Below, one piece after another: positions 23,581 to 24,261 of a stretch of DNA of 53,148 nt. Under the pieces are notes generated by a model. That model searched no databases. It saw only the letters and a list, made by a program, of their open reading frames with translations, and was not told the origin of the DNA. Location: NCBI GenBank assembly GCA_015069505.1, contig SVIL01000002.1:1-53148 (forward strand). The letters are read 5' to 3'. Position 1 is the stretch's first letter, and the number at the start of each line of letters is the position of its first letter. This DNA comes from Clostridiales bacterium (GTDB taxonomy: Bacteria; Bacillota; Clostridia; Christensenellales; Borkfalkiaceae). The position numbers were made by a program, and so were the translations under genes.

Positions 23581-23607
23581 AAACACGCTAAAACTTAGCG
23601 TGTTTTT
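23581..23607 (+). terminator. terminator of the glycerophosphodiesterase gene
   Basis: AACACGCTAA and TTAGCGTGTT form a stem followed by TTT. The last codons of the converging minus-strand gene lie inside the hairpin. Confidence 0.75.
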
Positions 23608-23963
23608 GTCAATATGTCTATAAGCCTTTTCTTCACGTCGTCAAAAAGGTCGTAGATTTCCTTTATTATGTCTAATTCTTTGCCCGCAAAATCAATTTTA
23701 ATTACCGTTTCCGTTTTAGGGCTTTCGTCCCCGTTCAAAATATCTTCAATAACCTTTTTTACCGATTCACTTTTGGGTTTTTCTAAGCGTGGTCTTCCAC
23801 GGTTAGTAAATTGTGGGCTAACCACGTGGTTTGCAACGTTTATTATAGCCCCTATCAAATCCTCTTTTTTTAGCATAGTTGGTGCTTTTACACCTAAATT
23901 ACTGCCTATCTCTCTCAAATCCGAAAGTTTATAATCCCAAAGGTCGTAAATATTAAAATCCAT
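23595..23963 (-). CDS. Rho N-terminal-domain (SAP-like) protein with AT-hook-like motif
   Basis: The 122-aa protein has an N-terminal Rho_N-type nucleic-acid-binding helix bundle (residues about 8-45: YKLSDLREIGSNLGVKAPTM then KKEDLIGAI), a linker with the AT-hook-like NRGRPRLEKP (about 56-65), and an acidic helical C-terminus that may oligomerise (ELDIIKEIYDLFDDVKKRL). It probably binds RNA or DNA. The track start is 25 codons longer; the ATG at 23963 follows GTGGGGGATT and starts after the attenuator hairpin. The upstream structured RNA suggests strong transcript-level control. Its target is unknown. Confidence 0.72.
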   Translation of the reverse strand: MDFNIYDLWDYKLSDLREIGSNLGVKAPTMLKKEDLIGAIINVANHVVSPQFTNRGRPRLEKPKSESVKKVIEDILNGDESPKTETVIKIDFAGKELDIIKEIYDLFDDVKKRLIDILTKTR

Positions 23964-23976
23964 AATCCCCCACATT

Positions 23977-24010
23977 AAAACAAAAAGTGCGTCAACCGAG
24001 GTCAACGCAC
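23977..24010 (-). terminator. intrinsic terminator (attenuator) before the Rho_N gene
   Basis: On the minus strand GTGCGTTGACC and GGTTGACGCAC form an 11-bp stem with two G-U pairs, followed by TTTTTGTTTT. It ends 14 bases upstream of the ATG, just before the ribosome site. Confidence 0.85.
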
Positions 24011-24033
24011 AAAAACGCAAACCCCCATTAGTC

Positions 24034-24178
24034 GCCAAACCAATTTAATGTGAAAGGTGTTACCATATCTACATTTTAGGAATTTGCATTTTATCAAATT
24101 CAAATATAGACATAGCAATAAAAATATATTCCCTAAAAAAGAAAATACACCTTTTCACGTTTATTAAATTGATTTGGC
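24034..24178 (-). ncRNA. candidate structured leader RNA or sRNA upstream of the Rho_N gene
   Basis: The minus-strand transcript folds in nested stems: a 16-bp closing stem (GCCAAAUCAAUUUAAU with AUUAAAUUGGUUUGGC), a stem of GUGAAAAGGUGU with ACACCUUUCAC (one base bulged), an internal loop of 31 bases opposite 2, a 12-bp stem (CUAUGUCUAUAU with AUGUAGAUAUGG, three G-U pairs) and a 7-bp hairpin (GAAUUUG, 8-base loop, CAAAUUC). Non-Watson-Crick positions are G-U on this strand and A-C on the other, which indicates direction. A SigA promoter predicts transcription to begin at 24178, the first paired base. With the terminator it would be about 200 nt. I recognise no known class. Confidence 0.72.
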
Positions 24179-24184
24179 ACAATC

Positions 24185-24213
24185 ATTATAGCACAAATAA
24201 AACTCTTTTTCAA
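24185..24213 (-). promoter_or_regulatory. SigA promoter of the structured RNA
   Basis: TTGAAA and a perfect TATAAT are separated by 17 bases on the minus strand; the expected start, seven bases on, is the first base of the closing stem. Confidence 0.8.
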
Positions 24214-24225
24214 GTTTTTCTGTAA

Positions 24226-24261
24226 ATAAAACGAAAACTCGGCTTTTATCAAGCCGAGTTT
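24226..24261 (-). terminator. terminator after the broken cupin gene
   Basis: AAACTCGGCTT and AAGCCGAGTTT form an 11-bp stem followed by TCGTTTT on the minus strand. Confidence 0.75.

Follow-up and report, generated by a model that had tools for sequence, protein, structure and literature searches.

A family of structured leader RNAs with a predicted terminator switch before single genes of gut Clostridia

Our analysis revealed that the structured RNA ahead of a short Rho_N-domain gene in a Borkfalkiaceae genome is one copy of an uncatalogued RNA switch family, which occurs in many gut Clostridia and stands there before single, diverse genes. Judged from its sequence and predicted pairings, the element is probably a cis-acting transcription attenuator, i.e. 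a riboswitch-like 5′ leader of the one gene behind it. This reading, which the original prediction had offered in riboswitch-like or protein-responsive form, is strengthened by covariation in homologous copies, by an antiterminator and a pseudoknot, and by a consistent placement 15-60 nt before genes.

Structure and family of the leader RNA

The window, i.e. the whole stretch of DNA that was analysed, comprises positions 1-53,148 of contig SVIL01000002.1 (Clostridiales bacterium, Borkfalkiaceae; GCA_015069505.1). A SigA-type promoter (TTGAAA, 17 bases, TATAAT) had been proposed to start transcription at base 24178, where a 16-bp stem begins, and sequence and fold agree with this: the predicted start on the minus strand is base 1 of P1, and the other copies read carry a TTG..-TATA(A/C)T promoter at the equivalent place. 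The 202-nt RNA from 24178 to 23977 has an MFE of -72.4 kcal/mol, compared with -37.1 +/- 3.7 kcal/mol for shuffles (z -9.7). The second stem, the further stem and the apical hairpin of the originally proposed fold were recovered, while its asymmetric internal loop came out at about 30 nt against 1 and not at 31 against 2, with a small hairpin inside. An intrinsic terminator does precede the ribosome site of the Rho_N gene, but with 10 bp instead of 11, and it ends 18 nt before the ATG of that gene at 23963 (Table 1). A terminator-like hairpin (AAACTCG(A/G)CTT...AAG(T/C)CGAGTTTT and close variants) is located at 24230-24260 of the window; comparable hairpins lie just upstream of the promoter at L036, L041, L051, L053, L059, L060 and L064, so that many copies of the element in this genus have such a hairpin ahead of them.

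Table 1. Features of the leader RNA and its surroundings, in window coordinates.
Feature	Position	Strand	Basis
-35 box TTGAAA	24208..24213	-	sequence
-10 box TATAAT, 17 nt from -35 box	24185..24190	-	sequence
Whole leader RNA element, type I	23982..24178	-	fold z -9.7; covariance model match; two paralogues in genome
P1 5′ strand, 16 bp with 24034-24049	24163..24178	-	fold and covariation
P1 3′ strand	24034..24049	-	fold and covariation
P2 5′ strand, partner 24050-24060	24147..24158	-	fold of window copy only
P2 3′ strand	24050..24060	-	fold of window copy
Small U-rich hairpin within the large one-sided loop	24129..24145	-	fold; conservation weak
P3 5′ strand, partner 24062-24077	24102..24116	-	swap test, 120 type I copies
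P3 3′ strand	24062..24077	-	swap test
P4 apical hairpin GAAUUUG-AUAAAAUG-CAAAUUC	24080..24101	-	fold; equivalent hairpin of type II covaries
Pseudoknot, apical half, AAAAUGCAAAUUCC	24079..24092	-	type I: invariant; type II: covaries with linker
Linker GGGGUUUGCGUUUU, pairs in pseudoknot (other half) and in antiterminator (5′ half)	24012..24025	-	swap tests, energies
Terminator 5′ strand and loop, capturable by linker (antiterminator)	23998..24008	-	energies, swap tests
Intrinsic terminator, 10 bp and U5	23982..24010	-	fold, alignment, energy
GGGGG, likely ribosome site	23967..23971	-	sequence
Downstream gene; product of 122 aa, Rho_N domain at N-terminus	23595..23963	-	ORF; PF07498, E 7.5e-6

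That the element belongs to a large family had been missed earlier. Its own genome holds three copies in total, and the two further ones, 72% identical over the 3′ half, stand before the genes of a protein predicted to be membrane-anchored and of one similar to EcoRI-type methylases; they fold alike (z -7.5 and -9.8) despite differing stem sequences. The search pattern AAATGCAAATT-N(50-80)-GTTTGYGTTTT yielded 32 matches in 18 of 44 congeneric genomes (reversed control: 0), and a covariance model found matches in 34 of the 44, with up to seven copies per genome. The 159 bits reached by the window copy are expected by construction, the copy being part of the model. Across the order the pattern occurred in 36 of 396 genomes from 21 genera and across the class, in a patchy manner, in 19 of 391, and among 399 genomes drawn from the whole phylum, the window's genome alone matched (0 of the 398 others). 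The matching records, among them Borkfalkia, Christensenella and Pumilibacter, are MAGs of Clostridia and come from many families of the class. We distinguish type I, which includes the window copy, measures about 190-225 nt and has GAAUUUG-AUAAAAAUG-CAAAUUCC as apical sequence and GGAGUUUGCGUUUUU as linker, from type II (about 130-180 nt), in which the layout is kept and the apical and linker sequences are different. Tandem copies, two or three in a row, were seen at L065 (three copies; 1411-1603, 1745-1951 and 2091-2284), at G010:C8:38085-38566, at G483:C95:5779-6185 and at L215 (2667-3232).

Ten viral contigs matched the pattern, four of them also the covariance model, and on the virus-labelled contigs L265, L268, L269 and L271 true elements precede a lipoprotein or zinc-ribbon gene. 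A single phage record (L315, MT835503.1:468-531) gave a partial match to the linker/terminator part, and a plasmid search with one copy as query gave no match. With just these few contigs and one partial phage match, an interpretation as a phage element was set aside.

The original prediction had recognised no Rfam class, and the Rfam search agrees: nothing in the window exceeded a gathering threshold, the matches at E<=10 were chance hits to snoRNA, miRNA and similar models, and among 20 homologous loci only neighbouring tRNA and tmRNA genes matched. No description was found in the literature, where an unnamed prior listing among the 3161 candidates reported by a human-microbiome screen (PMC8040213, accessible in part) is possible.

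Covariation and the predicted switch

Since RNAalifold on MAFFT alignment A2 recovered only the pseudoknot pairing and the terminator, P1 was specified in the model by hand. Across copies 98.5% of the P1 cells are paired and nine of its 12 pairs show changes on both sides, so that covarying pairs, proposed originally as a check on homologous copies, are indeed present. The covariation score of the whole structure was 0.299, compared with 0.124 for shuffled alignments (0/500) and at most 0.048 when slid. In swap tests, the statistics of which ignore the relatedness of copies, P3 of 120 type I copies reached a pairing score of 24.3 versus 13.0 +/- 0.3 with flanks swapped (0/1000). For type II, the same test gave 18.0 versus 13.8 +/- 0.6 for P4 (0/3000), 27.9 versus 22.4 +/- 0.75 for the pseudoknot of apical segment and linker (19 unique linkers; 0/3000) and 16.8 versus 11.8 +/- 0.8 for the antiterminator formed by the linker and the terminator 5′ strand (18 unique linkers; 0/5000), a helix of up to 13 bp, e.g. 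AUUGAGAGAUGCG/CGUGUUUCUCAAU at L280. The antiterminator effect was smaller in the whole set, which is mostly type I (12.86 versus 12.34 +/- 0.09; 0/2000), because type I linkers hardly vary. For type I alone the case for a conserved antiterminator is weaker and draws mainly on predicted energy, CUUCGG loops being common in terminators.

Four mutually exclusive helices form a chain of P4, pseudoknot (14-17 bp), antiterminator and terminator, in which each excludes the next. The choice of the linker between the apical loop and the terminator 5′ strand had gone unnoticed before. Predicted energies in the window are -15.5 kcal/mol for the terminator and -16.6 kcal/mol for the antiterminator; the corresponding values are -15.9 and -16.5 kcal/mol for the type I set and -14.9 and -15.4 kcal/mol for type II. 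Such near-equal energies are the usual mark of a terminator/antiterminator attenuator. Shuffling of the linker changed the predicted antiterminator from -16.5 to about -8.5 kcal/mol, and the pseudoknot duplex of the window was predicted at -18.3 kcal/mol with loop costs left out.

Sequence comparison shows the helices, the way in which they exclude one another and the constant place of the element ahead of genes; from these we infer how the switch would operate in cells and which state would be on. RNA polymerase would start at 24178 and make P1 to P4, and the linker, which follows just after P1, would then find two partners, the apical loop or the terminator 5′ strand. With a free apical segment, the linker would go into the pseudoknot, the terminator would fold and transcription would stop; with this segment bound or sequestered in P4, the linker would take the terminator 5′ strand and transcription would read through into the gene. 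That the pseudoknot corresponds to the off state is suggested by the pairing exclusions and by the order in which the segments emerge. As to the input, our best guess is that a global factor acts in trans and recognises the conserved loop of P4, since the same switch precedes many unrelated, lipoprotein-rich accessory genes and no conserved core resembling an aptamer is seen in its interior. A trans-acting RNA carrying the linker sequence was considered as well and rejected, as only three matches outside of elements were found in the genus, all coding-like.

Genes behind the element and alternative explanations

A ribosome site and an ORF in the same orientation follow 136 of 153 copies at a median gap of 20 nt, and the order and orientation of promoter, RNA, terminator and gene were constant in the copies read. 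For about a tenth of the copies no convincing ORF follows closely, and some tandem copies precede another copy. The cargo includes BspA-type leucine-rich repeats, Rho_N, EcoRI-type methylases, zinc ribbons, DUF4236 and a TIR protein, and many cargo proteins are without family match. Lipoprotein signals, detected with a simple lipobox pattern, are enriched (36 of 114 cargo proteins versus 15 of 373 background ORFs; P 3e-14). Anti-phage defence was considered as a common theme and dismissed, the matches being scattered. Helical proteins of about 75-77 aa (M(R/K)KK.TNE...) recur directly behind both element types (L036, L140, L206, L275, L276, L278 and L294).

Rho_N is a favoured, recurring cargo in the genus of the window and not a general partner of the element. 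Eight of the 13 short Rho_N genes in relatives are located directly behind an element of type I, type II or an intermediate form, and neighbouring genes are shared only within two locus pairs, from which we conclude that the association came about, or was retained, in several contexts. Rho_N accounts for only six of 116 cargo proteins, all from this genus among those inspected. A short Rho_N gene was found in 11 of 30 element-bearing and in none of seven element-lacking congeners (P about 0.06, by hand), and its absence is weak evidence here because several genomes are incomplete. Some short Rho_N genes free of the element (L130, L131, L133 and L135) adjoin a divergently oriented XRE-like repressor gene, an arrangement that resembles the switches of prophages or integrative elements.

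Autoregulation of the leader by the short Rho_N protein, which would then also control the other copies, is suggested by this frequent adjacency and by the RNA binding of Rho_N domains in Rho. We nevertheless consider it improbable, and unsupported as a function of the family as a whole: most copies precede unrelated genes, the regulator gene is not constantly behind the leader, 19 of the 30 element-bearing congeners (some of them incomplete genomes) have no short Rho_N match, and other short Rho_N genes are found beside the XRE-like gene instead. A stand-alone sRNA, 6S-like or other, with the downstream gene under its own control, would explain the own promoter and terminator and the terminated leader of about 200 nt that is to be expected. 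This earlier suggestion now seems very unlikely, since the antiterminator is conserved, at least three copies occur per genome, and genes with a ribosome site start so close to the terminator that they leave no room for a separate promoter. The element shares size and a long closing stem with 6S RNA, but differs in being multi-copy, in its terminator switch and in the gene directly behind it, and the 6S covariance model gave no match at E<=10.

At the DNA level, the element might be a repeat or a cassette end for the exchange of single genes, given its accessory and variable cargo and its real copies in a few virus-labelled contigs. Two genomes of the set, G007 (L124, G007:C6) and G019 (L127, G019:C64), are of interest in this respect: at the same locus their promoter/P1 5′ and P1 3′/linker/terminator blocks are near-identical and the downstream DNA is closely similar, while the RNA interior barely aligns and the Rho_N proteins are only 36% identical. 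Judged by sequence, the interior and the gene of this mosaic look as if they had been replaced or had changed very fast. However, compensatory changes maintain the RNA helices, including mutually exclusive ones, the genes are in constant orientation, no plasmid matched the one-copy query, and an unsystematic look noticed neither a shared 3′ boundary nor a recombinase, all of which makes a DNA-level module very unlikely. A small-molecule riboswitch, with a metabolite or second messenger as the ligand of its interior or pseudoknot fold, is a possible reading that we hold with some reserve. It would account for the leader position, the terminator/antiterminator platform, the tandem copies and the presence of several copies in one genome, in front of diverse genes of which a third have lipoprotein signals. 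Unlike known aptamers, though, type I has its invariant bases mainly in P1, P4/pseudoknot, linker and terminator and hardly any in P2/P3, which vary in sequence and length. This makes a classical ligand pocket in P2/P3 unlikely; a better fit would be an interior that can be exchanged, or an input that acts at the apical hairpin, and a small-molecule pocket may be located at the pseudoknot.

Comparison with known leaders and implications

The attenuator that we propose has counterparts among known systems. Fluoride, ZTP and preQ1 riboswitches are of the terminator type and contain pseudoknots. Like these, the element is a 5′ leader whose pseudoknot competes with the pairing that decides on an intrinsic terminator; in contrast to them, it is a rod of about 200 nt with no conserved ligand core seen and no Rfam match, it serves many unrelated genes, and its pseudoknot is predicted to favour termination. 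By analogy, it would work like a terminator-controlled riboswitch, possibly one of the small-molecule class. A genome can contain several c-di-GMP riboswitches, which precede surface-protein and other genes and are sometimes arranged in tandem. The element is similar in all three respects but is of other size and fold and does not match their Rfam models. In autogenous leaders of the ribosomal-protein type and in ANTAR-type antitermination leaders, a protein decides between terminator and antiterminator, and one leader type serves many genes. The same could apply here, with the difference that no constant regulator gene stands behind the element and that a rod with a pseudoknot takes the place of dual hairpins.

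A further, rather speculative idea is that P1, the apical loop, the linker and the terminator form a shared platform for an exchangeable P2/P3 rod, by which genes would be tied to different inputs or, alternatively, to one new global signal over surface lipoproteins and accessory genes across Clostridia. The search for the signal would be testable, as the carriers include at least one that is recorded as a strain rather than a metagenome bin, Pumilibacter intestinalis CLA-AA-M10. With well over 150 copies read and none of them represented in Rfam 15, the family would constitute a new class of cis-regulatory RNA. Its hosts are mostly uncultured gut Clostridia (Christensenellales and relatives), in which the design of the switch can be read from sequence and the element would mark a regulon where surface lipoproteins and accessory genes abound.
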